Source: a virus. Taken from it: a stretch of DNA of 35,544 nt. The notes beneath the pieces are model-generated. The model did no database searches. It had not been told where the DNA came from and worked only from the letters and a program-made list of their open reading frames with translations. A program made the position numbers and the translations under genes. The stretch lies in IMG/VR virus record IMGVR_UViG_3300050119_000344, positions 1 to 35,544 of that record; one strand, given 5' to 3'. This document shows positions 10,411 through 35,544 of this stretch, piece after piece; position 1 is the first letter of the stretch, and every line of letters begins with the position of its first letter.

Positions 10411-10415
10411 AACAC

Positions 10416-10537
10416 GGGGTAACACCGTTTCACAACTGGCCGCGCAGTCTCGCGGGTGCTGGCCGCGCAGTCTCGCGGGGTAACACCGTTTCACAACTGG
10501 CCGCGCAGTCTCGCGGGTGCCGCGCATTCTCGCGGGG
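10416..10537 (+). repeat. Short hairpin repeat block upstream of the scaffold gene
   Basis: A 44-base unit beginning GGGGTAACACCG occurs at 10416-10459 and again at 10477-10520. Within and between these, the 20-mer starting TGGCCGCGCAG recurs at 10437-10456, 10460-10479 and 10498-10517, and a degenerate fourth copy with one internal change lies at 10520-10537. Every 20-mer is itself a small hairpin: CCGCG pairs with CGCGG around CAGTCT (first copy 10440-10455). The last copy provides the GGGGAAAG that serves as ribosome binding site of the scaffold gene. No coding frame explains the region. Confidence 0.85.
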
Positions 10538-10549
10538 AAAGACCAATCA

Positions 10550-16614: not shown

Positions 16615-16658
16615 ACGTTTTTCCCCGCGCGCAACTTCGCGCACAAAGGATTTTCACC

Positions 16659-18632: not shown

Positions 18633-18970
18633 GAAACTGCCATCGCTACTTCCCGGAGCTGGCGAAGCCCGAAGCGCTCGCGCCGATTGCGTGGCAGGCC
18701 ATCTATAAGCTACCGCCCAGCACCAGCTATGCAATCGACGGCACCGAATGCGCCGAATGCCCGGTGTCGCTCATCACGCCCGAGTCGTTTCAGTTGGTTC
18801 AGATTTTCACGGACGCACAGCACGTCCAGAAGTTAACAGGGGCTGTATCCTATAGCCCCGATGCCGGCGAATGGCCTGCGCGTCTCTATGACGCGGCGAA
18901 GGCGCTGGCCATCGAAGATATCCGCATCAACAATTCCCTCCAAGAAGCGCTCGCGCGCACCCGCCCGTAA
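18048..18970 (+). CDS. Tail assembly chaperone, frameshifted long form (gpGT-like)
   Basis: A -1 slip at 18533-18539 joins the first 164 residues of the short form to 143 residues in the overlapping frame, giving about 307 residues ending at TAA 18970. The downstream frame has no ordinary start codon between the slip and GTG 18764, yet reads as clear protein (VAYHFRGTGGWSDEQFDCG, a Cys-x-x-Cys pair, then 'YFPELAKPEALAPIAWQAIYKL'). It therefore needs the frameshift to be translated fully. The -1 direction and location match G/GT systems of siphophages. The Cys-bearing part (CGTCKERHFYELRNC) may bind a metal. The 68-residue frame at 18764 is only the tail of this product. Confidence 0.85.
18533..18539 (+). 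promoter_or_regulatory. A_AAA_AAC programmed -1 frameshift site
   Basis: In the zero frame of the chaperone gene the codons read ATA AAA AAC, so the heptamer A AAA AAC is positioned exactly as X XXY YYZ. This is among the most efficient bacterial slippery sequences. Slipping back one base continues into an open frame that runs 143 codons. GC-rich sequence follows within 10-40 bases and could fold to stimulate the slip, but I cannot define a clear stem-loop by eye. Confidence 0.9.
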
Positions 18971-19006
18971 CTCCCACCAGCTTTTCCTTTTTGAGATTCC
19001 ACACCC

Positions 19007-22000
19007 ATGTCTTACATCCTGGATTTCCCCGTCAATGTCGGTAGCGCCGCGCCTTTGAAGAGCCTTAGCGACCAGATTCAGGAAGTCGCCAACCGCACCA
19101 AAGCCTCGCAGGGAGAACTGAACCTCTTCAAATCCGTGCTCGAAAGCGACGCCAAGGCCGGGATCGCGCTTGCGAAAACCCTCAACGACTTGAAGAACAG
19201 CGCGGCCACCGCTTCGCCCGGTGTAAGGGCGCTCGCCTCGGAATTTCAGAAGCTTTCCCAGGTCCAGGTTCAGTCCCAAAACGAAACCCAAAAATGGGGC
19301 CGGATGATGGAGTTGGCGTATCAGGACAACGCCAAACGAGCCGAGGCTGCCTCCGCGCGAATCATCGCCGCCAAGAAGAAAGAGCTGCAAGAGGCCGAGG
19401 CCGTCGCGAAGCAGCAAACAACTCTCGCCAACAACCTGGCCCGCGCCACGGGTTCCGCGTCATCGGTTCCCGGCGGCATCGGCACCATGAGTCTCCTGGG
19501 ACAAGCGGGCGGCGCTCCAACACTAATCGGCGTCGCCGCGCTCGCCGCCGTAGCCGTCGCCGCCGCCGCCGCCACCAAGGAAATTATCGCCCTCGCCAAT
19601 GAAACGGGCGATTACGCGCGCGAGCAATCGAACCTGGCGACACGCACCGGACTTACGCTCCGCGAGACTCAGGAATTCTCGCAGATGGCGGGCGCCGCGG
19701 GCGTCAATGTAGGCTCGCTCACTACCGCGATGCGCGGCCTGTCCAAGGGCCTCTCCGAGAATTCCGACGAAGGCAAGAAAGCCAAGGCGGCGCTCTCTGA
19801 ACTCGGCCTCAGCTCATCGGTGGCGTTCGAGCCTGCGGGCCGCGCCATGAAGGAGATCTTCGAGCGGCTAGGGCAGATGGACGCCGGATTCGAGCGGGAC
19901 CGTCTCGCAATTGAGCTGTTCGGACGTGGCGGCCTCGAGTTACTTCCGCTGATCGAGAACTTCAAGCAACTCGAAGCGCGTATCGACAGCGCCGGTCATA
20001 TCATGGACGAGGCTGGGATTGCGAAGGCCAAGGAGTACGCAATCCAGGTAAGCCTTCTGTCGCAGGAATGGGCCGCGCTCCGCCGCGAGATGGGCGAGAA
20101 GGCAATCGGCCTGATCGAGATCGCTCTCAATGGCGACTTGAGTATCGGTAGCATCGCGAAAGCTGTGGGCCAGGGGCCGGGCGGTCTCCTGGCGAACTGG
20201 ATAGCCGATCAATCGCACCAGAAGCACGCGGGATCGATCTTCGGCGACACCGATGTCTCGGGAATCAAGGTTCCCAAGGTGTCGCTAACCAAGGGAATGG
20301 AAGATCCCGCCGCGCGTTCTAAATTTGAGCGCTCGCAAAGCGTCGAAGCGCTGGAGTCGGACACCGGAACGCCGCGCCAGCGGCTCGAAGCGCAACTGAC
20401 GAAGGCTAGGAGCGACCAAAAGGCCGCGGGCGACGCATTCACCGAATCGAACAAGCCCGAGGATCTCCAGAAGGTCAAGGATTTCAAAAAGACTATCGAC
20501 GGCCTGGTGGAGCAGCTCGGCGCTGCAAAGAAGGCGACAGAGTCCTACGCGGACGCGCTGGCTAAATTCTCCAATCGAGGCCTGCCGAATGAGATGGATC
20601 GCCGAATCGCAGAAAACGACCAGCAGGCCAATGCGTTAAATCGCCAGTTTCCCAAGAACAGGGCTACCACCGAGACCACGCGCCTTTCTAATCTCGGCGA
20701 AATAGGGGACGAAGCCAGAACCAAGATCGCCAAGGGCAAGGCCGACATCGCGAGGTTCCAATCGCGCCTGCAATCGGAAGGCGAGGAGGCGTCCGAGAAA
20801 TTCTACACCGAACAAATCAAGGCGCGGGCCGGCACAGAGAAGGAACAGAAGGACCGAACGCTCCGCACCACCGTTGGCGACACCGGCCTCACGGTGCAAG
20901 ACTTCGCGCAGCGCTACAAGGCCGGCAAGGTCGAATTCGCGGGCCAGGAGCGCGCGATCGGCGACACGGCAACGCTTCGGGAACGCCAGCAGCAGATTGG
21001 CCAGGCCCGCTCGGCGGGCTCGCTGGGGATCGCGCGGGCGAGCGGGCGATATACGCCCATGCAACTCGCGAGCATGGGCCTAACGGATCAACTCAGCAAT
21101 ATTGCCTCAACGCGCGATATTCAGACCGGGCAGTTCAACGCACAAGCCTCTCTGTACACCAGCCGCGCGTCGAATACCTACGGGGACGATGCGGAAAAGC
21201 AGCGGCTAACCAACCAAGCATCGGAGGCGGCCGCAAAGTCCAAGGAAGCCGAGACCAAGGCGACCATCGAGACCGTCGAAGCTCTGAATAAATTCCGCGA
21301 AACAGCCGAGGAAGCCTCCGCCAAGATCCGCGAGCAGTTCGGCAGCTTCGCGTCGGGGCTGGTCGGCGCGGCGCGCGAAGGCCACGGCGGGAGCTACGCG
21401 CGCAACTACATGCTCGGCCAGATGGACAAGATGGTCGGCAACGCGGCGGAGAGCCTCTACAAGCCGGGCATGTTGCAACTGCCGGGCCCGCTCGGGAAAC
21501 TCGCCAAAGGCACCATGTTCGGCGAAGATCCGAAAGCGCACGTGAACGATGCGCTCATATCGGTCACCGACAAAAGCGTGACGGCCACCACGGACCTGAA
21601 TAAAGGCGTAGTGGATCTCACCGTGGCAATGGCGGCGGTATACCAAGGTCTCGGCGGCGATCCCACCTCCCTCGGATTGACTGGCCTGCCTGCCCTTCCG
21701 AACCTCCCCTCGGCAGCAGACGTATTGTCGGGGGGCTTGTCGTCAGGTGGATCAACGTCGGGCCTGAGCACGCTCGCCCTGGGCGGCGCGGCGGCGGGCG
21801 CAACGGCGGCTACGTCTTTATTCGCCAGCGCGATGAAGACTGTATCCGGAGGAGCAACACCCTCCGCCATTGGTGCGGACATCTCCGGTTTCACCAGCCT
21901 GGCAAAGAGCGCCAGCTCCTTCTCCTTCTCGAACCCGTTCACGAACAACGCTCCCAACGCCAGCGCGCAACCCGGATGGACCGGCGTCGCGGCGCCGCCT

Positions 22001-22789
22001 CCCGGTGGGTACGACCCGAACTCCGGAGTAAGCTCGAACACATCCGGCTACAGCAACCCGTGGGGCAGCTCGGTCGAAGCCCCCCTGTTCGCTCCCGGCG
22101 CCAGCACCGGCTCTCAAATCAGCGCGGGCGTCGGCACCGCCGCTGCCATCTACGGCGGCGTCTCGGGCGCCATGGACATCTCGAAGGGCGGCGGCCAGAA
22201 CATCTCCATGGGGATTAGCAAGGTCGCCGGATCGGTGGCCGCGCTCGATCCAGAACCCATCAGCAAGAGCATCCTTGCGGGCGTAGCTCTGGCGGCGGGC
22301 GTGGTTTCGTCGCTGATCGGCGATCCGAGAGCCAACCGCGCAGCCTCGATCAACCACGAGCTATTCAACAACCAGTACGTCGCGCCGCAAGCCATCAACC
22401 GCACCATGGACACCTCGGGCAATTATTCGAGCATCGATTTCCGGGGCAACGTGCGCGGGTCGGATCTATCGTCGATTCCGATTATTCAGCAGGCCTATGA
22501 AGATCCGCGCCACGGCGTCGTCGTACCGGGTCAGGTGCTATCGCCCTTCGGCGGCGGCGGCGCGCCCACCAGCAGCAGGATCGGCGAGAACACCGGGGCA
22601 ATCGGCATTACCTCGGGAGCCACGCCCGCCGCCGCGCCCAGCATTGTAATCAATAACCATGTGAGCGCAATCGATCAGGACTCGGTTGCGAAGTTCTTCC
22701 AAAGCAATCCACAAGCGTTGGGCGACGGAATGGTCAATGCGATGAACAAGGGCGGCACCGACCTGGTGAACCGCATGAGGACTATCTAA
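19007..22789 (+). CDS. Tape measure protein
   Basis: At 1260 residues this is the second-longest gene here and follows the chaperones, as expected. The N-terminal 150 residues are Lys/Glu/Ala-rich helical coiled coil. A hydrophobic segment lies at about 171-196 (TLIGVAALAAVAVAAAAA), and 'LATRTGLTLRETQEFSQMAGAAGVNVGSL' is typical of tape measure N-domains. A long charged coil spans about 420-820, followed by a Gly/Ser/Ala-rich C-terminal region. Tape measure length sets tail length; at about 0.15 nm per residue, it implies a tail near 190 nm. The hydrophobic segments may enter the host membrane during DNA ejection. No lysozyme or peptidase motif is evident. Confidence 0.88.
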   Translation: MSYILDFPVNVGSAAPLKSLSDQIQEVANRTKASQGELNLFKSVLESDAKAGIALAKTLNDLKNSAATASPGVRALASEFQKLSQVQVQSQNETQKWGRMMELAYQDNAKRAEAASARIIAAKKKELQEAEAVAKQQTTLANNLARATGSASSVPGGIGTMSLLGQAGGAPTLIGVAALAAVAVAAAAATKEIIALANETGDYAREQSNLATRTGLTLRETQEFSQMAGAAGVNVGSLTTAMRGLSKGLSENSDEGKKAKAALSELGLSSSVAFEPAGRAMKEIFERLGQMDAGFERDRLAIELFGRGGLELLPLIENFKQLEARIDSAGHIMDEAGIAKAKEYAIQVSLLSQEWAALRREMGEKAIGLIEIALNGDLSIGSIAKAVGQGPGGLLANWIADQSHQKHAGSIFGDTDVSGIKVPKVSLTKGMEDPAARSKFERSQSVEALESDTGTPRQRLEAQLTKARSDQKAAGDAFTESNKPEDLQKVKDFKKTIDGLVEQLGAAKKATESYADALAKFSNRGLPNEMDRRIAENDQQANALNRQFPKNRATTETTRLSNLGEIGDEARTKIAKGKADIARFQSRLQSEGEEASEKFYTEQIKARAGTEKEQKDRTLRTTVGDTGLTVQDFAQRYKAGKVEFAGQERAIGDTATLRERQQQIGQARSAGSLGIARASGRYTPMQLASMGLTDQLSNIASTRDIQTGQFNAQASLYTSRASNTYGDDAEKQRLTNQASEAAAKSKEAETKATIETVEALNKFRETAEEASAKIREQFGSFASGLVGAAREGHGGSYARNYMLGQMDKMVGNAAESLYKPGMLQLPGPLGKLAKGTMFGEDPKAHVNDALISVTDKSVTATTDLNKGVVDLTVAMAAVYQGLGGDPTSLGLTGLPALPNLPSAADVLSGGLSSGGSTSGLSTLALGGAAAGATAATSLFASAMKTVSGGATPSAIGADISGFTSLAKSASSFSFSNPFTNNAPNASAQPGWTGVAAPPPGGYDPNSGVSSNTSGYSNPWGSSVEAPLFAPGASTGSQISAGVGTAAAIYGGVSGAMDISKGGGQNISMGISKVAGSVAALDPEPISKSILAGVALAAGVVSSLIGDPRANRAASINHELFNNQYVAPQAINRTMDTSGNYSSIDFRGNVRGSDLSSIPIIQQAYEDPRHGVVVPGQVLSPFGGGGAPTSSRIGENTGAIGITSGATPAAAPSIVINNHVSAIDQDSVAKFFQSNPQALGDGMVNAMNKGGTDLVNRMRTI

Positions 22790-22790
22790 C

Positions 22791-23567
22791 GTGGGCGCGA
22801 TTCCGAATGTCCGAGGCCACGGCCAGGCGCTTTATCCGCTCACGCGATCCCGCGAGTATTCGACCGACCTCGCGCAATTCGTGAACGGCACCGAGCAGCG
22901 TTTCAAAGTGCGGGCGGGATTAACGCGCCTGAAGCTGCCGTACTCGGCGCTGGTAGCGGCCGACGCGAGCAACCTCGATACGTTCGTCGATTCGGCGAAG
23001 GGCATGTTCGATACGACGGGGACGATCACGCTCACCGATTCGCTGGGCAACTCGAACACCTTCGATAATTTAACGCTCGATCAGGACACCATCGCCCTGA
23101 TCGAGAAGGAGCCGCTGCTTTTTTCGACCGAGCTGGACCTGCACCAGACGCAAAATCGCAACACGCCCGCCCCGGTCGTCGCGGCGGCGTTTCCGGTGTT
23201 CGACGTCGGACTCTCGGCGCAGCTTCCGTTGCAGCAGATCCGGCGCCTGCTGTCGGCGGTGGTCGATCAGCCTTCGGGCATCCGCTACGCATGGGCGTGG
23301 TACGGCGAGGGACTCGTTGGATTTCCGGATGGAGCGCTGGAGGCGTGGGAGCTTACGCTGCTGTTGTCGGACGTGAACCTGGTCACGCTTGAAACCTTCT
23401 TCCGCGCGATGGAAGGCCGGATGTGGACGTTTTCCTTTATCGACCCCGAGAGCGAAAGCGTGTATCCCAATTGCCGCTTCGGATCCGACGTGCTGCAGAT
23501 CCAGCACGCCGGCGTGAATGACAACCGGGTCGTTTTGCAGATCGTCGCGTTTCAGGTGAACGTTTAA
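22791..23567 (+). CDS. Putative distal tail protein
   Basis: Starts at GTG 22791, one base after the tape measure stop. The 258-residue product seems to contain two similar halves. Each begins with an aromatic strand and a segment like 'SREYSTDLAQFVNGTEQRFKVR' or 'FPDGALEAWELTLLLSD', and has 'LDTFVDSAKGMFDT' or 'LETFFRAMEGRMWTF' as a following helix-loop. This resembles the beta-sandwich of distal tail (Dit-like) proteins that form the hexameric ring joining the tube to the tail tip. Position right after the tape measure agrees. Its TAA overlaps the stop of the convergent gene in the palindrome TTAA. Confidence 0.7.
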   Translation: MGAIPNVRGHGQALYPLTRSREYSTDLAQFVNGTEQRFKVRAGLTRLKLPYSALVAADASNLDTFVDSAKGMFDTTGTITLTDSLGNSNTFDNLTLDQDTIALIEKEPLLFSTELDLHQTQNRNTPAPVVAAAFPVFDVGLSAQLPLQQIRRLLSAVVDQPSGIRYAWAWYGEGLVGFPDGALEAWELTLLLSDVNLVTLETFFRAMEGRMWTFSFIDPESESVYPNCRFGSDVLQIQHAGVNDNRVVLQIVAFQVNV

Positions 23568-24163
23568 GCGACGCCGTACAGTGTGTCGATAGTGATCCGG
23601 TGCCTCATCGAATCCGGGTCGTAGGAAAGAACCGCCCGAACGGATACATCTCTCGCTTCGCACCGAGCGGAGATCGCGCCGATGCCGCGAAGGATCAGCG
23701 GATGTTTCGCATAACAGAGAACACTCCGTCCTTTGCAATCATCCGTGATGCTTTCGGCGAGCGCTAACTGAGCTGTGACCATGTATGCCCGCTGCAGCGC
23801 CGGATTGTCGAGAACCTCTTCGATGTCCGGGACGGCAACCGTGCTCTCCATATGGCGCGTCAGTCGGACGCGTCGTCCACCCGGAAATATTACGGTGTCG
23901 AAAGCGGTCCCCACGTGCGGGCTCTTGTGTATGAGTATCCCCAGAGGAAACTTGAGCTCCGCCTGAATCCCCGCCGCCGCCTCGGCAGCCAGGATGCGGA
24001 GTTTCGCTTCGATCTTGGCGAGCGCATCGATGGGCTGAGGCCCCGGAGAAGGAACCTGCTTCCCCGGCTCGACAGCATACGCCTTAGCTTCGGGGATGTT
24101 GTGAATGATCGATCCCCCGGCGGCTCCAACCCCGAACGCTCGTAAGAACCCTCGTCGATCCAT
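23564..24163 (-). CDS. Twin-arginine signal protein, moron-like, minus strand
   Basis: The only convincing minus-strand gene. The 199-residue product starts MDRRGFLRAFGVGAAGG: a twin-arginine (Tat) motif R-R-G-F-L-R followed by a weak hydrophobic core and A-K-A (about 25-27) as possible cleavage site. This predicts export in folded form. The mature part is mixed helix/strand, with 'ALAKIEAKLRILAAEAAAGIQAEL', several Cys residues and a C-terminal 'SMRHRITIDTLYG'. No enzyme family is recognised. Start is ATG at 24161-24163; no strong ribosome binding site is seen. Inverted orientation amid tail genes suggests an independently acquired 'moron', perhaps expressed in a lysogen or altering the host envelope. 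Those roles are inferred. Confidence 0.75.
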   Translation of the reverse strand: MDRRGFLRAFGVGAAGGSIIHNIPEAKAYAVEPGKQVPSPGPQPIDALAKIEAKLRILAAEAAAGIQAELKFPLGILIHKSPHVGTAFDTVIFPGGRRVRLTRHMESTVAVPDIEEVLDNPALQRAYMVTAQLALAESITDDCKGRSVLCYAKHPLILRGIGAISARCEARDVSVRAVLSYDPDSMRHRITIDTLYGVA

Positions 24164-24310
24164 GACTTAAGTGTAGCTGCCGGGCTTGCCTCGTCCCGGC
24201 GCGCCGAGGCCCTCTGGGTTCGCATTCGCCAACAGCTACGTCGGCTATAGCCAGACCAAACGGCGCCGCCCGGTCCGCACTGATTCCTCGGTCCCCTTCC
24301 AAACAGCTTC

Positions 24311-27300
24311 ATGATCCCTCTTTCCGGCACAGTAAACGCGAATAAAGATAGCGCTTCGGCGTACCAGCCACTTCTGTTGGCCACGGTTGCGTTTGCCGAT
24401 GGCTCCATTCTCAACCTCTCGACTCACCCGATCAATGAACCGGAAGGCGGCTTCCCCTGGCCCGGCGCGGCGAACCTTCCGGGGGGCGAATACCTCGCGC
24501 GCATATCCACGCAGGACATGGGACAGTTGCAGTCGCGCTCGCAGGAAGGCGTCGACCGCATCCCATCCATCGCGCTGCATTTAGCCGACCCCGACAAGTT
24601 TCTGTGGACCAACTTCGAGCAACAGATCGGCTTCAAGGGCGCGACCGTCTCCCTGAATCTTGTGATGTGGCAGGCCGACACCGCCAACTTCAGCTCCGAT
24701 GCTCCGCTCCAATTCCAGGGCGTCTGCGACGGGCCGAACTACGAAGGCGGTCTCGATACGATGACCGTCACCGCGAATTCGAGCCACAACACCTCGCGCG
24801 TGTATTTCCCGATCGTGCCGCTCGGCCCGACGTGTCCATGGGCTTTTCCGCCGGGCGGCCCAACAGCGAACCCCGGCGCGCTCAGGCTCGACGGGGCGAC
24901 CAATCGCAGCTCGGTTTACTGGGAGTGCGGCTACGATCCCGACCAGGCCGGAACAGATCCCGACACGCTGGCCGATGCGCGCTGCGGCAACCTGACCACG
25001 CCAAACGCCACTGACGCGGCTGGAAACATTGTCGCGGACGCGAACGGCGTTTTCATCACTTGCGATTACACCAAGCCCGGCTGCGTGGCGCGCGGCATGT
25101 ACACGCAAGACAGCGCCGCGCGCCCGACCGGGCGCTTCGGCGGCGTCCAGTGGTCGGCCGATCCCGGCGAGAGTCAGCACAACAGCTATCTGGACGGCCA
25201 CGATGTCACCGTCTTTAACTCCCAAAACACGTCGATCATCGGCAATGGAATCAACCAGCTCTATGGAACCGAATGGGTCAACGGGCAGGTCGTCAATATT
25301 CAGGCGGACGGCAACCTCACTCAATTCGAGGTGATCGTTTGCCTGGGCGACGTCGGCATCCCAACTTACGTCGGTGGGACGTTCGTTAGCGGCATCGAGA
25401 AGGTGCTCGTTAACGGAATTCTGATCAACTACACCAACAATTTCGGGACGATGATCGACGGGGTTAAGAAGACCGGCGAAGGTTTCGACCCACTGACGGT
25501 TTCGATCAACTTCGATTCCGACATGAGCTGGTCGCACGTGACCACCGGACTGCGGACGGGCGCGCAGGACACCGCGCTCTACTACGGAGGCCCCGGCGAT
25601 CCCTACGGCTCCATCTGCACCATCGTTTGCCAGGTCTACCAGCAGCTCGGCGGCGATGGCAGCCAGTTTCCAACCGTCCAAGTCCTCGCCTCCGGCACAC
25701 GCGTCGCGGTCTTCAGCGATCCGACGCAAACCGGCTCGACGGTCCCGATGGTCCAGTCCAACAATCCGGCCTGGGTGCTGATGGACATCCTCACCTGGGC
25801 CAACTGGCAATACAGCGATTTCGATCTTCCGAGTTTCATGGCGGCGGCGGCCTTCTGCGACACCTGGATCACATATACGGACCTTACCGGCAACCCTGCC
25901 GCGGTGCACGCCCGCTTCATTTGCGAGGTGGCCATCGACCAGCGGCGCACGGCGGCCGAGCTCATTCAATCGATCCTGTGGGGCTTCCGCGCGCAGCTCA
26001 TCAACAATTACAACGGCAACGGGCTGCTCTATCTGATGATCCGCGAGTCGACCGCCGACCAGCAGCCTCTAGCCATCGCGGGATCGAACTACAACACGGC
26101 GATTACGTCGGTGACCGCCAACGGCACGATTGCGCTGGGCTACCTCGCGTATCTGTTCGACGAGAACTCCATCATACGAACGCAGGAAAACGGCAAGCCG
26201 GCGATCAGCATGAAGATGCTGCCTAACTCGTCGACGCCCAACCGGATCATATTTCCGTTTCAGGATTCGGCCAACGCCTATGTGTCGGACTCGCTCAACA
26301 TCGTCGATACCGACGCGGTCCAGCGCGCAGGCGGCTACCTGGGCGGCGGCGGAAACGAGGTGCCGCAAAACGTCACCGTCATGGGCGTTTCGAACTTCGA
26401 CCAGGGGATACGGATGGCCAACACCATCCTGGCCGAAAGCCTGCGCGGCAACGAAGCGCAGGACACGCGCGGCACGCGAACGTTCACCGTCACATCGACC
26501 GTCCGGGTAGCGCACTTGCGCGTCGGCATGATCTGCATATTCGCTTACCAGCAGTTGCAGCTAACGCCCATCGTGGGCGTGACCGACGGCTCGGGCAATC
26601 CGGTCACGGGCATCCTCGTGCGCATCACGAGCCTCCAGCCGACCACCAACTACACGCGCACCCAGATCACCTTCGCCTGGCATGACGACGATTGGTATGA
26701 GGACACCTTCGGGCAGAATCCGGCGCCGTTCTATGCCGCCGCGGGCATCGCCGGCGCGGGGATCCCTCTGCCGTGGCGTCCGGACTCGGAAGTCCCGCAC
26801 TCGAACCTGTTTTCGGCCACCGACCTGAATTTTTCCGTATCGCAGATCTACCAAACCCTGAAAGACGGCTCCGCTCTCGCGCAGCTCATCATTTCAGGCC
26901 GGCCGCCGGCAAACACGTTCTCGAAGCTCAACCCGGGCCCGCAGCGCCCGCTTGTGCCAAGGCAGGGCTTAACGGCGGCCACCGGCGGTTCCATCCTTGG
27001 ACCAACCGCAGGCAGCCAGGCCTATGTCATCGCCATCTGCGCCGTCGATTCCACGGGCGCGCTCACGCCCATGTCGCACTTAATCCAATGCGCGATTCCG
27101 GCGGGCACGGACACGAACACGCTCGATACCGGAACCCTCTTTTGGACCGCCGAGACATCCGGCTACCAGGTCTTTGCCGGGACGGACATCAACCATCTGA
27201 GCTGGCAGGCTACAGGGACCGGGACGCCCGACTCGATTACGCTTACCGCGCTGCTCGACGCCTCCTACGGGCCGCCCGATCCTTCGTTCGATCATTTCCG

Positions 27301-28873
27301 CGTGCGGGCCAAGCGGGTCTTTCACGACGGCGTTTTCGGGCTTGCAATCAACGGCGTTACGGCCACCACCGTCACGTTCGGCGACGAGACGTTCGGCGTC
27401 AATCAATGGGCGGGCTATACGCTCTCGATCATCGGCAAGCCCTCGTCGCAGGCCAACGTCAAAATCATCGACCTGTTAATCGCATCGAACACGGCGACGG
27501 TTTTGACGCTCGATTCAAGCGCGCCGGATCCCACTTCGCTGGGCGTCGCGATCGGCGACGTGGCCATTATGCGCGCCTTGGCCGACACCTTCAGCGCGCT
27601 CAGCATCGGCTGCTCGAACTTCATTAATTCGGTGAACTATTACGATCCGCCGATCGCGATCGCGAGCGTCAGCATCTCCGGAACGACGGCCACCATCGTT
27701 ACTGTGACCGCGAACGGCTACGAGACCGGCCAGGACGTAATTTTAGCGGGCGCCGGGCCGCTCAACGGCGAGTACGCAAGCATCACCGTGATCGCCGACG
27801 ACACCTTTACCGTGACCATCACGGGGCCGGTGGGCGACTATCCCGGCGGCGGCACGGTGCAGGCCTCGACCAACGGCTTAGTGGTCAATGGCGAAGTCGG
27901 CAACATGCTGCGGATTATCGCCGGCACGGGAGGCGGGCAGCGGCCGCGGCTGATTGCATCGAACACCAGCACGGTTTGTGTGCCCGCCAGTCCCTTCAAT
28001 CCGGTGCCGGACGCCACGAGCATCTTCATCATCGAGGAAGCGAGCTGGCAGTACGACGTAGACACCGCCAAGGGCTTGATCGTCTCGAACCCGAATCCGG
28101 CTACGGCGCCGCAGATCGGCATTTTGAACGTCGACAATCTGCAGGGCGAAACGATCCTGGTCGAAGTGCTGACCGCCGACGCGGTGGACACGCTTTCGCT
28201 CGAGAATTACGCGCCCTTCCGTGAGATTTTCCTCTTTGGAGCTCCGGGCAGTCTGCAAAAGCAGTTCGATAAAGCGATTTGGAATTTGGGCATGACCGGC
28301 GACATCACCGTCGCCACCGATATCGCGCCGCACTACCGCGTCAAGAACGCCGGTTCGCCCTTGAGCACGGTCTTTGAGGCGAAGATTCCGCCGCAAGGCG
28401 GGAGCCTCATCCTCGACATCATCTGGACCAACGCCGCAGGCACTTCGACCGCCAGCATTTTCGCGTCGCCCAATAGCGGCGGAAGCAACCAGAGCACCGC
28501 GGACGCGGTCGGCGCGGGAAGCACAACGCTTCAGTCGGCGACGGCCAATTTCAACGCGTCGGTGGTCGGCGCGGCGATTCAGCTTTCCGGCGGCACCGCG
28601 GCGCTGGTTTCGAGTTGGTATTACGTCGTCGGATTTACGAACGCGACGACCATCACAGTGGATCGAATCGTACCGCTCGGCATCGGCGCGAGCATGACCG
28701 TAGGCGGCTACGCGATCGCGATTCCCTCGGGCGATGCGAGCCTGCTTTCCGACGACATATTCACGAGCGTCCAATTCGCGCAAAACGATTTGCTGACCGT
28801 GAATTGCCTGGAGACGGGGCCTGTGCAGGCGGGCCGAATGGTCACATTGGAGCTTAAGTGGACGATCGGTTAG
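24311..28873 (+). CDS. Tail tip / host-specificity protein (gpJ-like size), 1520 aa
   Basis: The largest gene. The N-terminal 350 residues are beta-rich and contain a Cys cluster (C175, C206, C225, C251, C258; the last two in TCDYTKPGCVARG), reminiscent of the Cys-containing segment of central tail-tip hubs. A typical hub pattern follows, 'LYGTEWVNGQVVNIQADGNLTQFEVIVCLGD'. Residues about 480-800 look like the second hub part. The C-terminal 600 residues are Thr/Ser/Ala-rich beta modules: an FCCH-like repeat (about 1117-1187, ending 'YPGGGTV') and a module at about 1390-1470 shared with the spike gene. The protein should close the tail tip and contact the host. No murein hydrolase motif is seen. 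Confidence 0.8.
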   Translation: MIPLSGTVNANKDSASAYQPLLLATVAFADGSILNLSTHPINEPEGGFPWPGAANLPGGEYLARISTQDMGQLQSRSQEGVDRIPSIALHLADPDKFLWTNFEQQIGFKGATVSLNLVMWQADTANFSSDAPLQFQGVCDGPNYEGGLDTMTVTANSSHNTSRVYFPIVPLGPTCPWAFPPGGPTANPGALRLDGATNRSSVYWECGYDPDQAGTDPDTLADARCGNLTTPNATDAAGNIVADANGVFITCDYTKPGCVARGMYTQDSAARPTGRFGGVQWSADPGESQHNSYLDGHDVTVFNSQNTSIIGNGINQLYGTEWVNGQVVNIQADGNLTQFEVIVCLGDVGIPTYVGGTFVSGIEKVLVNGILINYTNNFGTMIDGVKKTGEGFDPLTVSINFDSDMSWSHVTTGLRTGAQDTALYYGGPGDPYGSICTIVCQVYQQLGGDGSQFPTVQVLASGTRVAVFSDPTQTGSTVPMVQSNNPAWVLMDILTWANWQYSDFDLPSFMAAAAFCDTWITYTDLTGNPAAVHARFICEVAIDQRRTAAELIQSILWGFRAQLINNYNGNGLLYLMIRESTADQQPLAIAGSNYNTAITSVTANGTIALGYLAYLFDENSIIRTQENGKPAISMKMLPNSSTPNRIIFPFQDSANAYVSDSLNIVDTDAVQRAGGYLGGGGNEVPQNVTVMGVSNFDQGIRMANTILAESLRGNEAQDTRGTRTFTVTSTVRVAHLRVGMICIFAYQQLQLTPIVGVTDGSGNPVTGILVRITSLQPTTNYTRTQITFAWHDDDWYEDTFGQNPAPFYAAAGIAGAGIPLPWRPDSEVPHSNLFSATDLNFSVSQIYQTLKDGSALAQLIISGRPPANTFSKLNPGPQRPLVPRQGLTAATGGSILGPTAGSQAYVIAICAVDSTGALTPMSHLIQCAIPAGTDTNTLDTGTLFWTAETSGYQVFAGTDINHLSWQATGTGTPDSITLTALLDASYGPPDPSFDHFRVRAKRVFHDGVFGLAINGVTATTVTFGDETFGVNQWAGYTLSIIGKPSSQANVKIIDLLIASNTATVLTLDSSAPDPTSLGVAIGDVAIMRALADTFSALSIGCSNFINSVNYYDPPIAIASVSISGTTATIVTVTANGYETGQDVILAGAGPLNGEYASITVIADDTFTVTITGPVGDYPGGGTVQASTNGLVVNGEVGNMLRIIAGTGGGQRPRLIASNTSTVCVPASPFNPVPDATSIFIIEEASWQYDVDTAKGLIVSNPNPATAPQIGILNVDNLQGETILVEVLTADAVDTLSLENYAPFREIFLFGAPGSLQKQFDKAIWNLGMTGDITVATDIAPHYRVKNAGSPLSTVFEAKIPPQGGSLILDIIWTNAAGTSTASIFASPNSGGSNQSTADAVGAGSTTLQSATANFNASVVGAAIQLSGGTAALVSSWYYVVGFTNATTITVDRIVPLGIGASMTVGGYAIAIPSGDASLLSDDIFTSVQFAQNDLLTVNCLETGPVQAGRMVTLELKWTIG

Positions 28874-28890
28874 ATCGCTAGGACTTATCG

Positions 28891-29601
28891 ATGCTTTTCG
28901 ACCCTCAGTTCGCCTACGACACGATGCTGCCTCTGGCAGAGGCAGCCTACGACCTAACGTTGATTCCCGCGCCGTGGAAGCTCGTCGCCGCGATCCAGCC
29001 GGGCGACTTCGGCTTCATTGCGGTGGCTGGAAACATCATCGTAATCGCCTTCCACGGCACCGAGACCAAGGGCGAATGGCTGGAAGATTTCGAGGGCGTC
29101 GCCGTCCCAAACCGTTTCGGAAAAGGCATGGTGCATCAAGGCTTCCAGGATCAGTACGCGGCGGTGCGTCCTTCCATCCTGTTTGCGCTCGCGCAGGTCT
29201 CGCTCTCGGAAGCATCGTTGCTCCGGGCGCCCGATCAGATCTGGATTACCGGACATTCGCTCGGCGCATCCCTCGCCACGCTGTGCGCATCCGACACGGC
29301 GATCGCCGGCGGCCGGGCGAATCTCACTTACACCTTTGCGGGACCGCGCGTCGGCTGGCACGATTACTCGGGCTGGTTCAAGCAGTGGTGGGGGCCGATC
29401 TTCCGCATCGTGAACGAGTGGGACGTGGTCTGGCACACCCCCACCGCGCTAATGGGCTACGAGCACGTCGGGTCGGAAGTATTGATCGATGGCGGCCGCC
29501 CGAAAATGGACGGCGAGTTTTTGCGGCACGCTCACAATCTGCAACTGAGCTACCGGCCCGGACTCGCGAAGCTATTGCCGCTCCCGAAAGTCATCGTCTG
29601 A
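28891..29601 (+). CDS. Class 3 lipase-like alpha/beta hydrolase in the tail cluster
   Basis: A 236-residue enzyme from ATG 28891. It carries the class 3 lipase signature: oxyanion region AFHGTE (54-59), nucleophile elbow GHSLGAS (121-127, Ser123), an Asp at 178 in 'FRIVNEWDVVWH', and His at 213 or 215 in RHAHN. The triad is complete, so it should hydrolyse lipid or other ester bonds. It lacks a signal peptide and membrane segment and is followed by a fibre gene through a TGATG overlap, so it is probably made with, and perhaps built into, the tail. An esterase removing acyl groups from host surface polysaccharide or lipid during adsorption is one reading; late membrane disruption is another. 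Both are inference. Confidence 0.85.
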   Translation: MLFDPQFAYDTMLPLAEAAYDLTLIPAPWKLVAAIQPGDFGFIAVAGNIIVIAFHGTETKGEWLEDFEGVAVPNRFGKGMVHQGFQDQYAAVRPSILFALAQVSLSEASLLRAPDQIWITGHSLGASLATLCASDTAIAGGRANLTYTFAGPRVGWHDYSGWFKQWWGPIFRIVNEWDVVWHTPTALMGYEHVGSEVLIDGGRPKMDGEFLRHAHNLQLSYRPGLAKLLPLPKVIV

Positions 29602-30935
29602 TGCCGATCGCCGACGCCGGGGGCATCAACGTATGGACGGAATTCGACGGCTCGACGCGGAATAACTACATCGAAGGACTGACTACCTCGTTGCTGCTCG
29701 CCGGTTGGTCGCTGTCTGAAAAAGTGTTTTCCTCGATCACCGGAACGTTCGGCTCGAATCCATCTCCGGGCCAGACGATCACCGCCGGATATCAGACTTA
29801 CACTTTCGTCGCCGCGCTCGGAAGCCCTGCCAACGAGGTCCTAATTGGGGGCAGCTTAGGGGCTAGTCTGGCCAACCTGGCCGCGGCGGTCAATCTTGCG
29901 GCCGGATCCGGTTTGGCGTACTCTTCAGCCACTCCGATCAACCCTATCATTCAGGCCTCGACCACGGGAAGCGATGTGACGTTCAGCTTCCGCTATGCCG
30001 GTCCCATGGGCAATTCGACGCCAACGACGTTCGGCTTGACGGTAGGCGGCGGCTTCAAACTCACGGGCCAGAGTCCGCAGGCGCAGGCCGGATCGCTCGC
30101 GCAGATGTCGTCTAAATTGCACATTTACGACCGGGGCGCGGCCGCGTTCGGAAATCTCTACGCCAACGCCCAGTTTTTGAGCACGGACGAAACGCTATCG
30201 AGCGGCGAACAATACATCAAGGTAGCCCGCGCCCTCACCTACCGTTGCGTCGCCAATCAAGCGCAGTTCTTCTGCTACATTCCCGGCACGGCGGCCGACA
30301 AAGCAGGATCGGTGTTGTGCGGAGGCGTGCCGTGGATCGCGCCGGCGTCGGCCTGCGCCGGAGATGTGCCGCAGATTCCGGCAACGCTCTCGTTCTGGAC
30401 CTCGGGCGATTACGGCGGCTTCGGTGGAGGGGGAGTCGAGCAGACGACGCCGCGCACGGTTACGGTTGGGATTTCGGCCGCCCACTTTTCCGATGTCGAT
30501 CAGCTCGCGCAGGTCATGACCAACAAGGGCGACGCCAACGGCTGGGGAAGCTCGGACGCCGCGTATAACGGCGACGTGACCTCGGGCGATTTTCACTTGA
30601 CGACCATGAGCCCGGCCTACAATTACGGCGTCGACCTTGCGGGCAACCTGGTCGATTCCCTGCGCTGGCACGGAGGCAATGGCGTTATTGGACGCCGGAT
30701 GCTTTTAGAGCCGCTGGTCGCCTGGTCTCCGTCTTCCGGAGGCGCGCCGCTGGTGCGGGGCCAGCTTTGGAACGCCTGGATCGGAACCGACCAGGTCCCC
30801 ATGGATACGGTCCAGCAATTCGGCGACGGAAATTTCTATGTCGCCTTCACCAACGCCTGCAAGTTCGGGACGTTGTGGCTGCAAGTTCCGGGCCCCAATC
30901 CGTTCGTGCTCGAATCGGTCAGCTACGCGCACTGA
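29601..30935 (+). CDS. Tail fibre-type structural protein A, 444 aa
   Basis: ATG 29601 overlaps the lipase stop by one base (TGATG), so the longer frame upstream is a shadow. The 444-residue product is Gly/Ala/Ser/Thr-rich and beta-structured. Residues about 52-105 form a small module, 'SPGQTITAGYQTYTFVAALGSPANEVLIGGSLGASLANLAAAVNLAAG', known from many phage fibre and tip proteins. The N-terminus (GLTTSLLLAGWSL) and C-terminal part (LWNAWIGTDQ...DGNFYVAFTN) parallel those of fibre B further on, so the two look paralogous. The likely role is tail fibre or baseplate decoration; no catalytic motif is seen. Confidence 0.75.
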   Translation: MPIADAGGINVWTEFDGSTRNNYIEGLTTSLLLAGWSLSEKVFSSITGTFGSNPSPGQTITAGYQTYTFVAALGSPANEVLIGGSLGASLANLAAAVNLAAGSGLAYSSATPINPIIQASTTGSDVTFSFRYAGPMGNSTPTTFGLTVGGGFKLTGQSPQAQAGSLAQMSSKLHIYDRGAAAFGNLYANAQFLSTDETLSSGEQYIKVARALTYRCVANQAQFFCYIPGTAADKAGSVLCGGVPWIAPASACAGDVPQIPATLSFWTSGDYGGFGGGGVEQTTPRTVTVGISAAHFSDVDQLAQVMTNKGDANGWGSSDAAYNGDVTSGDFHLTTMSPAYNYGVDLAGNLVDSLRWHGGNGVIGRRMLLEPLVAWSPSSGGAPLVRGQLWNAWIGTDQVPMDTVQQFGDGNFYVAFTNACKFGTLWLQVPGPNPFVLESVSYAH

Positions 30936-30937
30936 AA

Positions 30938-30972
30938 AAGTTCCATTCCCGATTTATTCCGATAATATATTC
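30938..30972 (+). promoter_or_regulatory. AT-rich promoter-like island before the molybdopterin gene
   Basis: The 67-base gap between fibre A and the next gene contains an AT-rich stretch (TTTATTCCGATAATATATTC), unique in a GC-rich cluster. GATAAT (30961-30966) and TATATT (30966-30971) each match the -10 consensus at five of six positions. No good -35 is visible at 16-18 bases. A separate promoter would fit an independently expressed cargo gene. Confidence 0.4.
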
Positions 30973-31002
30973 AACCGGAACGCCGGAAAGGACTTGTCGA
31001 TC

Positions 31003-31974
31003 ATGAAAGCGCTGACTGTTGAACTAAACCAGGCGATGGGACGAATACTGAGCTGCACGCTGTTTCGCGCGGGCGGCAAGAAATTGCTGGCCAGGGGCCA
31101 TGTAATCAGTGAAGAGGACGCCCGGATGCTAGGCGCCGAAGGGATGAGCGAGGTCTCGGTCGCGGATCTCGAAGAACACGAAGTAGGCGAAGACGACGCC
31201 GTCATGCGGGTCGCCAGGGAACTAGGCTGCGGATCGCTAGAAATCCGTCTCGCCGCCGGAGGGCGGGCCAACCTCTACGCCACCGAGGGGTGCTGCGTCT
31301 TGGTGGACGACGAGCTGTTAAACCAAATCAATTACGTGGCGTGCATCGCCATAGCCACCGTTCTGAACTTTTCTTATGCGCGCGCGGGACAACGGGTGGC
31401 CTCGATCAAGAGCGTGCCGTTCGCGGTTGCCAAGCCGGAACTCGCCGCGATGCTCACAATCGTCCGGGAGCGAGGTCCCGTCCTGCAGGCCCGGCCCATC
31501 CGCGATCCGCGCGTGGCTATTCTCTATACCGCCCCGGAGAACGGCGAACAGGCCCGGCAATGGTTTGAAACTATCATGAGACAGCGCTTGGATCGGTTCG
31601 GAACCTACCCATGCTTCGTTCTTTCGTCGGCCGAAGCGGAAAGCGACGTGGCCCGCTCGCTCCAGCATTTGCTGCGCGCGAAGCCAACCGCCGTCCTGAT
31701 CGCTTCCACCACCGCGCCCGCCGGACCCGACGATGTGATTGGCCGCGCCATGGTTCGAGCCGGGTGCCACATCGAGCGGTTTCTCGCCCCGGTGGAGCCG
31801 GGCAATCTCTTCTTACTGGGCTACAAAGACGATGTTCCGATTGTGTCCGCTCCGGGCTGCTTCCGATCCGCGCGGCTCAATGTCCTCGATTTAATGCTTC
31901 CTCCCATGCTTTCGCGCTATCGAATTTCGGGGCCTGAAGTAGGGCGGCTTGGACACGGCGGATTGCTCGGCTGA
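31003..31974 (+). CDS. Molybdopterin-binding (MoCF-domain) protein, phage cargo
   Basis: Chosen start is ATG 31003 after GGAAAGGAC; the frame is open to 30838, but that part overlaps fibre A. The 323-residue soluble protein resembles cellular molybdopterin-binding proteins: an N-terminal domain with 'ILSCTLFRAGGKKLLARGHVISEEDARML', a middle GRANLYA motif (87-93), and a C-terminal MoCF domain (about 170-323). The latter includes 'VLIASTTAPAGPDDVIGRAMVRAG', then VEPGNLFLLG and SAPGCFRSARLNVLD, ending LGHGGLL. Related proteins, sometimes fused to MobA-like nucleotidyltransferases, act in molybdenum cofactor handling for enzymes such as xanthine dehydrogenase. It has no structural-protein character. 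Lying between two fibre genes, it is best read as an auxiliary metabolic gene. Confidence 0.82.
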   Translation: MKALTVELNQAMGRILSCTLFRAGGKKLLARGHVISEEDARMLGAEGMSEVSVADLEEHEVGEDDAVMRVARELGCGSLEIRLAAGGRANLYATEGCCVLVDDELLNQINYVACIAIATVLNFSYARAGQRVASIKSVPFAVAKPELAAMLTIVRERGPVLQARPIRDPRVAILYTAPENGEQARQWFETIMRQRLDRFGTYPCFVLSSAEAESDVARSLQHLLRAKPTAVLIASTTAPAGPDDVIGRAMVRAGCHIERFLAPVEPGNLFLLGYKDDVPIVSAPGCFRSARLNVLDLMLPPMLSRYRISGPEVGRLGHGGLLG

Positions 31975-32031
31975 AGAGTCTCTGCCTGCGAACGACCGTC
32001 CTGAAGAGCGCCGGAAGAAAAGAGAATTCCA

Positions 32032-33852
32032 TTGGCCGATCTAACCGGATATATCGGGCCCAACGTGCAGAGCTTCGACTTCGTGGCGGGCGTGATTTCG
32101 TTATTGCCGCCCGACGTCAACACTTCAATCGGCGCGCTGCGCGACGAGCTCGTCGGAAGCGGCTGGACCAACCCCACGTTGCCCGATGGAGATCAGGACG
32201 GAACGCTCGCCACCGGATCGCTCACCGCTCTCAGCTTTCCCGCGCACGCCGAAGGGAGCGATGGATCGGGAGTGCCCGATATCGGCGGCGGCCAGTTCGC
32301 GGGGACCTTCGACGGGATCACGTTTAAGTTCTACGATCCGCTCGCGGTGCCCCCCGATCCCGATCCCATCGAGGGCGGCGTGATTTGGGTTCCGCTATCG
32401 ACCACCGCGCTCGGCACGCTCGGCACCTTCCTGGGTCTCGTCTCGGACGCCACGCGGTGGGCCTTCGGCTTCGTTTCCGGCAACGCCATCGAAGCCACGC
32501 TATCGGTAACGGCGCACGATACCGGGCCACAGGGAAATATTGACGCATACACCGGAAGCTGGGCGCCAGGCGGCGATTATCTGGGCGGCCAGGGCCCGAC
32601 CGGCGGCGGCTGGAACGTTTACTCAGAGCCCGCTCCGGTCACCGGCGACACGATGAAGCTGACGATCTTCCAGGGAGAATTCGGGTCGCCTTCTCCGGCC
32701 TTGAAATTTGAACTGCCTTCGGGATCGGGAAACACCACAACCTACGCGCTCGCGCAGTTAGAGTACAACTATGGATTCAATCCCTACCAGGTCGCCATCC
32801 GATGTCTGCCTGGCACGGGAGGATCGAGCGTCGTCGGGACGCAGAAAGTCCTCGCCGCCGCGCTCAACGTTCCTGCCGTGCTCGGTCCCGTGAGTATCAA
32901 CATTTCGGGCGTCGTGAACACCGCCGGAAGCGTGCCTGTAGTCATCGAGACCACGCTTCCGCACGGACGCACCATGCAGGACCGCATAAAGCTGGCCGGG
33001 ATCGCGGGCGCCGCGCACGCCAACGGCGCCTGGTGGGTAGCCAAGATTCCTACGCCCACGTCGTTGTGGATCAGCAACGCGCCGCTGGTCTTCGTGTTTG
33101 GCGATGGCAACGCCTATACGGGCGGAGGCTCGGTCTACGAGATCGGCACCTCGGCCGTGTTCGCTATCGCCAACGTGGTAAACGATCCCTCGGGGCCCGT
33201 GGTCATCACGACGGTGCTTCCAAATGGTTACCAGCCGGGCGATTTCGTCTCGCCGTCCGGAGCTGGTGGAATCGCGAATCTGAGAGGCGTCTATTCGGTG
33301 GCCGCAGTGCTCTCGCCCACCGAGTTTGAAATCGCTAAGTTCGACGCGGGAATCCTCGACGGCGACGGCAATGCGTACACCGGCGGCGGGACGCTTACCA
33401 GCGGCATCTTTCAGGCCATGTTCGCCGCGCAGATCGACACGCTGTTTTACGACGACGGCAATACGAGCGGATCGGTTGTCGCCGCGCAAGGCGTCTTCGG
33501 CTCGTTCACGCTCCAGCAGCGTTTGTACCTGGACGGCAGCATGGAGTTATCGAGCCTTGCCACCTACTCGATGGCGATCCACGTCCCTTGGTCGGGCGAG
33601 GCGGGCGACGGAGAAACGAGCGCTCTGAAGCCGATTCTCGTCGCGCCCTACGTGGCCTTGCGGATCGCGGCGGGGCAGGAAACGCGGTTGGCCGGAACGC
33701 TCTGGGATTCCTACGTTGAATTGCAGAACTACGATTACGGACAGCGCGCGACGCACGAAGGGATTTCCTATATGGCGTGGGTAACGCACGAGCCGACGCT
33801 CGCGACGTTGAACGCGACGCTGTTTATGAAATCGGAAACCACCAGCAGTTAA
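32032..33852 (+). CDS. Tail fibre-type structural protein B with FCCH-like repeats, 606 aa
   Basis: Begins at TTG 32032 (GGAAGAAAAGAG upstream). The product is beta-rich, Gly/Ser/Thr-rich. Residues 291-368 and 378-455 are two copies of an approximately 80-residue repeat: 'T-x-L-P-x-G', a short domain, then G-D-G-N-A-Y-T-G-G-G. Such 'YTGGG' repeats in bacterial and phage tail proteins are often annotated as ubiquitin-activating E1 FCCH-like domains; the name reflects fold similarity and not ubiquitin chemistry. The N-terminal helix and the C-terminal 'LWDSYVELQNY...GISYMAWV' parallel fibre A. Probable adhesin or fibre that forms the distal host-contact apparatus. Confidence 0.75.
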   Translation: MADLTGYIGPNVQSFDFVAGVISLLPPDVNTSIGALRDELVGSGWTNPTLPDGDQDGTLATGSLTALSFPAHAEGSDGSGVPDIGGGQFAGTFDGITFKFYDPLAVPPDPDPIEGGVIWVPLSTTALGTLGTFLGLVSDATRWAFGFVSGNAIEATLSVTAHDTGPQGNIDAYTGSWAPGGDYLGGQGPTGGGWNVYSEPAPVTGDTMKLTIFQGEFGSPSPALKFELPSGSGNTTTYALAQLEYNYGFNPYQVAIRCLPGTGGSSVVGTQKVLAAALNVPAVLGPVSINISGVVNTAGSVPVVIETTLPHGRTMQDRIKLAGIAGAAHANGAWWVAKIPTPTSLWISNAPLVFVFGDGNAYTGGGSVYEIGTSAVFAIANVVNDPSGPVVITTVLPNGYQPGDFVSPSGAGGIANLRGVYSVAAVLSPTEFEIAKFDAGILDGDGNAYTGGGTLTSGIFQAMFAAQIDTLFYDDGNTSGSVVAAQGVFGSFTLQQRLYLDGSMELSSLATYSMAIHVPWSGEAGDGETSALKPILVAPYVALRIAAGQETRLAGTLWDSYVELQNYDYGQRATHEGISYMAWVTHEPTLATLNATLFMKSETTSS

Positions 33853-33881
33853 TCAGCAAACAATCAGAAGGAGTTTTCACC

Positions 33882-34310
33882 ATGGCAGGATTCAAGGGTC
33901 AAGGCGCGTGCAAATCCACGCTCGCCGCTCTTCTCAACACAGCCGCTACCGCATACTGGGCGCTCTTTACGGCGGCTCCAACGGAGGCGGGCGGCGGGAC
34001 CGAAGTCACGGCGGCGGATTACGCGCGTCTGGCGGTCGTGCTCAACACCACGAACTTCCCGGCGGCGGTAAGCCCGAGCGTCGGATCGACCGGTGCGGCG
34101 AGCATGGCCAACGCCGTGTTGCAAACCATCAGCTCGGGGACGACCAACAACTGGGGAACCGTAGTGGGCGTGGCGCTGGTAACGATCCTCACGGGCGCGC
34201 TCGGGGTAAGCAACATCATCTACTACGCGCCGTTGTCGGCGAGCCGGAATATCTTGACCGGCGATCCGGTCGAGATCCCCATCGGCGGATTCATCGCGAC
34301 GGAAGCGTAA
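33882..34310 (+). CDS. Small tail-associated protein, 142 aa
   Basis: ATG 33882 has AGAAGGAG 8 bases upstream; the frame upstream of it is a shadow of fibre B. The 142-residue product contains 'TAYWALFTAAPTEAGGGTEVTAADYARLAV', the common motif of small phage tail proteins (A-L-F-T-x-x-P-T-x-x-G-G-G-T-E-V...Y-A-R), followed by a Thr/Ser-rich middle and hydrophobic strands. These lie next to fibre or spike genes in many phages and probably form a connector or baseplate piece; the exact function is unknown. Confidence 0.75.
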   Translation: MAGFKGQGACKSTLAALLNTAATAYWALFTAAPTEAGGGTEVTAADYARLAVVLNTTNFPAAVSPSVGSTGAASMANAVLQTISSGTTNNWGTVVGVALVTILTGALGVSNIIYYAPLSASRNILTGDPVEIPIGGFIATEA

Positions 34311-34313
34311 TCC

Positions 34314-35544
34314 ATGTCCACGATTTGGGAAGTCCGGCCCACGGTCGGCAGCGACACCAACGGCGGCGGGTTTACGTCCGGCGGCGCGGGAACCGATTAC
34401 TCCCAGCAGAACGCCAAAAACTCCAGCGGCAATAACCAGAGCACCACGGACGGCGTCGCCAACGGCACAACCACGTTTACAAGCGCCACGGCCAGCTTCA
34501 CGGCGGCCATCGTGGGCAATCTGCTTTATCTTGCCGGCACGGGCGTTACAACGGGCTGGTATCCGGTCGCGAGCTTCACCAATGCGACTACCGTCGTGCT
34601 CTCTAGCTCGCCCGGTACCGGGACGGGGATCACGATGCACGTCGGCGGGGCGTTTGCAACATTCACGCCCGTGGTTGCGGCCTATGGAACCGGCGACACC
34701 GCGTACATCAAGGCAACCGGGACACTGACGATTACGGCGAACATCGGCCCCCTTCACTACTCGATCTCCATCGTGGGCTACTTCAGTGTTCGGGGGGACG
34801 GTGGCCAAGCGACGATAACCACCGCGACCAGCTCGATTTCGCTGATCCGTTTCAACAATGGCCCGTGCGCTTACTCGTTTTTCAATCTCATACTCAGCAA
34901 CACGGCATCCGTGCGCGCGCCTGCTCTTTCAGCCGACAATTCGGTCTACGCCGTCAATATTGCCTTCGTGAATTGCGTGATCGACGGGTGCAGCACGCTC
35001 ACCGATATCGGGAATAACGACATCAACGCCGATCCTTTGCTGCTCGATTCGTGCGAAATCAAAAACTGCACCGGATCGGGATTCAGTTGGGCGTACAACA
35101 CCGCCTTCAACGCGCAGGTGCTGGCCTGCTACTTCCACAACAATACGGGCGACGGCTGGCACTCGACCTCGCAAAACGGCGCGCACGTGTTTGAGCGCTG
35201 CGTCTTTGCGTCGAACGGCGGTCGCGGCTTCAACGTCGGCGGCTCGGGCGGCACGAATCAGATGGTCCTCATGAACTGCGCGGCCTGGGACAACACGGGC
35301 GATGGATTCAAGTTTTTAGACGTCACGGGCGAAATCATCTGGAACACCATCGCGTACGGCAACGGCGGCTACGGCATCGACCAGGGCAACAATGCGCAGC
35401 CGCCCTTTACCGACGTCCGCAACTGCGCGTTCGGATCCAACGCCTCGGGCGCGCACACCGGCCTTGCCACCACGGGCGACGTGACGCTAACCGCCGATCC
35501 GTTTGTGAGCGCAGGCACCGGAAACTTCCGGCTCAACAATACCT
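34314..35544 (+). CDS. Beta-helix tail spike or receptor-binding protein, 3' end outside window
   Basis: ATG 34314 lies three bases after the previous stop, and the frame stays open to the right edge (410 codons seen), so the gene is partial. It opens 'STIWEVRPTVGSDTNGGGF', a widely seen start of phage tail proteins, then has a 75-residue module also present in the tail-tip protein, and from about residue 190 onward a long series of short Asn/Gly/Cys-containing strands ('VNIAFVNCVIDGCSTL', 'EIKNCTGSGFSW', 'HVFERCVFASNGGRGF'). That is the pattern of a right-handed parallel beta-helix, typical of polysaccharide-binding or degrading spikes. Active-site residues cannot be assigned. Confidence 0.8.
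   Translation, partial: MSTIWEVRPTVGSDTNGGGFTSGGAGTDYSQQNAKNSSGNNQSTTDGVANGTTTFTSATASFTAAIVGNLLYLAGTGVTTGWYPVASFTNATTVVLSSSPGTGTGITMHVGGAFATFTPVVAAYGTGDTAYIKATGTLTITANIGPLHYSISIVGYFSVRGDGGQATITTATSSISLIRFNNGPCAYSFFNLILSNTASVRAPALSADNSVYAVNIAFVNCVIDGCSTLTDIGNNDINADPLLLDSCEIKNCTGSGFSWAYNTAFNAQVLACYFHNNTGDGWHSTSQNGAHVFERCVFASNGGRGFNVGGSGGTNQMVLMNCAAWDNTGDGFKFLDVTGEIIWNTIAYGNGGYGIDQGNNAQPPFTDVRNCAFGSNASGAHTGLATTGDVTLTADPFVSAGTGNFRLNNT

Follow-up and report, generated by a model that had tools for sequence, protein, structure and literature searches.

A gene of Bryobacterales origin with a predicted molybdopterin-binding fold in the tail cluster of a tailed phage

Genes for biosynthesis of the molybdenum cofactor (Moco) have been described in phages, with moeB listed as a phage-borne gene (PMC11097641) and moaA and moeZR present on viral contigs (PMC13288924). 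The initial annotation of the gene described here regarded Moco handling as a class not known to be common in phages; these reports show that such genes have precedents, but the subfamily to which the gene belongs appears to be new in a phage, and a literature search for this protein family in phage recovered no report. The gene lies in a 35,544-base IMG/VR virus record, IMGVR_UViG_3300050119_000344, which we refer to at its full length as the window. This contig is a genuine tailed-phage genome: ahead of its tail and fibre genes it encodes a ParB/methyltransferase, the large terminase subunit, a portal, a major head protein and a tape measure. No tRNA genes were found in it. Viral genes are present on both sides of the gene of interest, which is embedded in the tail cluster as first described, with tail/fibre-type, lipase, Gp80/phrog_240 and beta-helix genes flanking it, all on the + strand. 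A related and syntenic phage, L009 (IMGVR_UViG_3300037853_000055), does not carry the gene. The features of the region are:

24311–28873, + strand: 1520-aa tail protein with a weak Phage-tail_3 match (Pfam), 78% identical in L009
28891–29601, + strand: Lipase_3 esterase flanked by tail genes, with a counterpart at the matching position in L009
29601–30935, + strand: upstream neighbour, a 444-aa tail/fibre-type protein, 72% identical to L009:15282–16616
30936–31002, + strand: 67 bp leader running from the stop of the upstream gene to the ATG, with an AAAGGA Shine-Dalgarno-like run 5' of the ATG
31003–31974, + strand: host-derived MoeA/MogA-like protein (molybdopterin-binding fold), 323 aa, from the open reading frame, homologues, model and profile
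31975–32031, + strand: 57 bp downstream spacer, within which the insertion ends on its right side
32032–33852, + strand: downstream neighbour in the tail/fibre cluster, a 606-aa protein with 62% identity to L009:16652–18493
33777–34310, + strand: Gp80 fibre/phrog_240 protein (domain/PHROG match)
34314–35544, + strand: right-handed beta-helix protein, running off the window and complete in L002

The 31003–31974 reading frame is intact, encodes 323 aa, and contains all four of the motifs that the initial annotation had quoted. Its ATG at 31003 aligns with an invariant Met1 in 18/18 cellular orthologues (alignment A4), and a longer reading frame opening at 30838 was therefore rejected as the gene. 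Scans for a consensus promoter or a clear terminator beside the gene gave nothing above chance, and it is plausible from this arrangement that it shares one transcript with the tail genes. Direct repeats flanking the gene are only weak and at chance level, and no host leader or trailer was detected as having moved with it.

The absence of the gene from L009 provides a view of the site without the insertion. About 36 bp separate the 444-aa and 606-aa genes in L009 (the stop ends at 16616 and the next start is at 16652), compared with 1,096 bp (30936–32031) between the matching pair in the window. The empty site indicates that the segment was gained in the lineage of the window or, less likely, lost in L009, loss being the poorer account because the phage gene nests inside cellular sequences. 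In the virus searches, relatives of the neighbouring tail genes were limited to L008 and L009, so that carriage can be compared in just two lineages.

Two tandem repeats were noted elsewhere in the contig, an exact 590-bp duplication near its left end (306–895 and 893–1482), which may be recent or may instead reflect an assembly fault, and an imperfect 73-bp repeat, 90% identical, at 10415–10544. The contig is metagenomic, and if the 590-bp duplication is an assembly fault then the gene, too, could in principle owe its position to a chimeric join of phage and chromosome, but we consider this extremely unlikely. A second record, IMGVR_UViG_3300050122_000236, is 100% identical across 18845–35544 of the window (16.7 kb), has different ends, and extends 2.6 kb beyond the window end; although the two assemblies may share reads, the junctions are the same in both. 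Moreover, chromosomal sequence beyond the gene was detected on neither side, and the identity to any known cellular copy is only 75%. A chromosomal chimera, named at the outset as a finding that would refute the observation, is therefore not what the two contigs indicate.

Relatives of the phage protein were sought across 84,980 genomes, with 581 confirmed. The best 42 of these are mostly 55–75% identical and come from records labelled Bryobacterales or other Acidobacteriota (with one labelled Acidimicrobiia), the closest being a Bryobacterales protein with 75% identity; beyond Acidobacteriota (Chloroflexota, Alphaproteobacteria) identity falls to about 36%. Plasmid-borne homologues were matched by tblastn with E values down to 3e-34, covering 98–100% of the query, so the similarity lies well outside what chance would give. 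The gene is present in 228 of 257 genomes of the Bryobacterales, the order of the genome with the closest copy, usually as a single copy. Maximum-likelihood trees place the phage protein within the Bryobacterales together with copies from the genome G001 (support 96/93), in a set of eight sequences with support 100/98, and its end branch is long, at 0.37 changes per column compared with 0.08 for G001 copy 1. The phage gene thus descends from a cellular gene, captured from the Bryobacterales (Acidobacteriota), and the cellular character first ascribed to it is borne out. In the MAG labelled Acidimicrobiia, the copy (L027:4001–4936) is of Bryobacterales type and has the argC-argB-GNAT context; its contig is probably mis-binned or mislabelled.

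To assign the protein to a family we combined profile and structure comparisons. An AlphaFold2 model built with 45 sequences has a mean pLDDT of 91, and its top Foldseek matches are gephyrin-E, MoeA and Cnx1E (E about 1e-8 to 1e-6). In this predicted model residues 167–308 adopt the molybdopterin-binding-domain fold of MogA, MoaB and MoeA domain III, and superimpose on the MoaB/MogA-type domain of MoaB2 with Z 12.3 and an rmsd of 3.0 over 133 residues; the whole-chain rmsd to MoeA-type chains is 16 A, so the domains are placed differently from those chains. A family profile matches MoeA 1uz5 at E 2e-5, with D244 and the PG loop aligned. Simpler searches were less informative: the phage protein has no Pfam match, to PF00994 or otherwise, PF00994 is weakly matched in 6 of 19 relatives (best E 0.0057), and neither a PHROG search nor a direct PDB sequence search with the single phage protein gave a match. 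The MoeA/MogA-like call made from sequence motifs is thus backed by profile and structure in spite of the missing Pfam match. As modelled, the protein has the build of a molybdopterin-binding module. It is nevertheless distinct from MoeA, because it lacks domain IV (the protein stops at 323 and the MoCF domain ends near 308) and because the lysine of the MoeA PGKP loop is Asn in the phage protein (VEPGN) in the profile alignment to 1uz5; identity as a MoeA Mo-insertase was accordingly rejected. The position among tail genes could also point to a virion structural protein or adhesin merely resembling cofactor proteins, but the chance of this is close to negligible given the MoCF fold, the 75% identity to a near-universal chromosomal gene, and the PHROG search, which leaves no phage structural family as best match.

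Captured DNA need not be used by its new owner, and the gene might be a passenger, host DNA acquired by illegitimate recombination and unused by the phage. Consistent with this, it is a single gene in a single virus lineage, its GC3 of 0.71 is nearer to that of the host copy (0.73) than to those of phage genes (0.76–0.81), and it departs from cellular copies at four columns that are otherwise at least 97% fixed (K31R, D177A, R183Q and W311P), with D177 and W311 conserved in cellular copies and altered in the phage copy alone. The pattern of substitution argues the other way. Comparison with G001 copy 1 gives dS 1.49 and dN 0.16. Their ratio, about 0.11, resembles that between cellular copies, and the phage copy keeps 89 of 93 columns that are at least 97% fixed in cells; selection therefore maintains the phage gene, although the estimate is approximate, with synonymous sites near saturation and one phage allele. 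A three-point split of 4-fold distances assigns about 0.66 synonymous and about 0.21 amino-acid changes per site to the phage branch, values that are rough for the same reason, the near-saturation of synonymous sites. The branch is long with the frame intact and change mostly synonymous, whereas neutral simulation of the host gene to 80% identity left it stop-free in only 27 of 300 runs, and the gene fits tidily between its same-strand neighbours with a ribosome-binding site. We therefore regard the passenger explanation as quite unlikely.

The role of the gene is less readily defined than its origin, as its cellular relatives occur in two different settings. In loci outside the Bryobacterales (L053–L090) an XdhC-type gene is directly upstream in 36 of 38, frequently accompanied by MoxR, VWA and xanthine-dehydrogenase genes, and the phage protein is homologous to this XdhC-linked family over the full N-terminal 320 residues. 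Where the flank is long enough, most Bryobacterales loci have argC-argB-GNAT upstream; on the downstream side are genes for a polysaccharide deacetylase, an enolase-like protein or FabF. Queries for XdhC, MoxR, VWA and xdh found none in Bryobacterales flanks of up to 4 kb. Likewise, neither XdhC nor molybdohydroxylase genes were found by Pfam or PHROG among the phage neighbours. A Moco role for the Bryobacterales subfamily consequently draws on the fold and on distant relatives, and the argC-argB-GNAT setting allows for another function. The subfamily might thus have a non-Moco role, for example in arginine biosynthesis or regulation, with the phage carrying the host-derived auxiliary gene for that role. 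The conserved argC-argB-GNAT context, the PGKP loop without its lysine, the missing domain IV, the weak MoCF profile scores and the position of extra G001 copies beside a response regulator or Crp-type regulator agree with such a role; nevertheless, columns shared with XdhC-linked homologues are kept (18 residues are invariant over the 45 sequences, XdhC-linked homologues included) and molybdohydroxylases and XdhC are plentiful in the hosts. We view a non-Moco role as possible, though on balance unlikely.

The cellular machinery that a Moco role would call for is well represented in the host order. XdhC is present in 60 of 61 genomes, and MoCoBD_1 xanthine-oxidase-family hydroxylases are found in 12 of 12, with 1–11 matches each, some of which are pieces of one gene; a true MoeA is present besides in 12 of 12. 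G001 is among the genomes richest in these hydroxylases and has four copies of the gene. Its three extra copies (L128, L129 and L130, on contigs C27 and C28) include two near mobile-element genes: one is close to a TOPRIM primase, a replication-initiator-like gene and a phage-type integrase, and another has an integrase-core transposase and an SNF2-type helicase on the same stretch. Because of these surroundings, transfer of the gene by mobile elements is perhaps not confined to phage, although the two G001 regions were only sampled. It is conceivable, but in our estimation quite unlikely, that the Bryobacterales subfamily serves a new role as a mobile accessory, one whose dosage limits a step (molybdohydroxylase loading or a non-Moco one) that benefits mobile elements.

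Relatives of the tail protein bear on the host of the phage. Of 396 Acidobacteriota genomes, 6 contain one; the two longest belong to the Bryobacterales genomes G196 and G001, of which G001 is also the source of the closest cellular copy; relatives of the 1520-aa tail protein in two Bryobacterales genomes are 31–34% identical. From the ancestry of the gene and the restriction of tail-protein relatives to few Acidobacteriota genomes, we infer that the host is a member of the Bryobacterales. Portal homologues near 30% identity, some with internal stops, are found in 198 of the 257 Bryobacterales genomes, too many for them to be proof of host. G196 (L167:8200–18465 and L168:11–5452) and G001 (L169:2686–12637) each contain a phage-like head-tail cluster with a 1306–1308-aa tail protein; in both genomes the cluster ends close to a shared M24 peptidase gene, and it looks like a vertically inherited element, either gene-transfer-agent-like or a fixed prophage.

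Taken together, we think it reasonably probable, as a whole chain, that this is an auxiliary metabolic gene from a Bryobacterales chromosome, kept working and aiding cofactor delivery to xanthine-oxidase-family molybdoenzymes. On this reading, a tailed phage of Bryobacterales captured the gene from its host's chromosome. The empty site in L009 places its entry between two tail/fibre genes after the two lineages split, and the dN/dS of about 0.1 and the retention of conserved columns show that it has been maintained as a working protein. In the predicted product a MoeA-like part at the N-terminus precedes a MogA/MoaB-like domain (167–308), and the chain is truncated before domain IV. It may bind molybdopterin or Mo-molybdopterin, and by analogy with distant relatives could hand the cofactor to the XdhC/nucleotidyltransferase branch, which loads the xanthine-oxidase-family hydroxylases; each host has several of these. 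Expressed late, presumably alongside the tail genes, it would keep active molybdohydroxylases (for CO, aldehyde or purine oxidation) supplied during virion production. The original suggestion that the gene could redirect purine, CO or aldehyde oxidation gains no support: the hallmarks of MoeA are missing, and in the source order the gene sits with argC-argB-GNAT and not with molybdoenzymes.

Scans of IMG/VR (2.9 million contigs) with the phage protein, a broad alignment and a Bryobacterales alignment recovered the same phage only, although pattern scans can miss divergent copies; the gene in this tail context is seen in the second contig of this phage and, in these scans, in no other virus. 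Matches in named 'phages' were rejected as probable host DNA, being unannotated, 23–27% identical (fragments to 40%) and from Enterococcus or gut records. One such match is a 23% homologue in an unverified 'Enterococcus phage Efs 1-1-1' record (L006:6001–6963), probably host DNA in a phage assembly.

The Bryobacterales are an abundant, hardly cultured order of Acidobacteriota with few known phages, and this analysis ties an unclassified phage to them. It suggests that the phage gene may prop up a host metabolic function, which would extend phage-carried metabolic genes by a late Moco-handling step, and it draws attention to a gene that is near-universal in the Bryobacterales, as yet uncharacterised, and conserved in its arginine-cluster context.

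The phage protein can be compared with four known groups. Its Bryobacterales chromosomal orthologue (e.g. L011/L132 in G001) is alike in length, start, domains and clade at 75% identity, but the phage copy differs in its late tail cluster location, long branch and four substitutions (K31R, D177A, R183Q, W311P). The XdhC-linked molybdopterin-binding/glycosyltransferase (NTP transferase) proteins of Alphaproteobacteria are about 30–36% identical over 323 aa and share the 18 invariant residues; these are placed after XdhC and often have a C-terminal NTP-transferase fusion, whereas the phage and Bryobacterales proteins stand alone. With the Mo-insertases MoeA, Cnx1E and gephyrin-E it shares a MoeA-like N-terminal part, a MogA-like domain, the D244 Asp and the PG loop, but at 10–18% identity, without domain IV and with Asn for the PGKP lysine. 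Finally, phage moeB, moaA and moeZR (PMC11097641, PMC13288924) are likewise cofactor-biosynthesis genes on viral contigs, but belong to unrelated families acting in molybdopterin synthesis or sulfur relay, whereas the product of 31003–31974 would act at a late delivery step.
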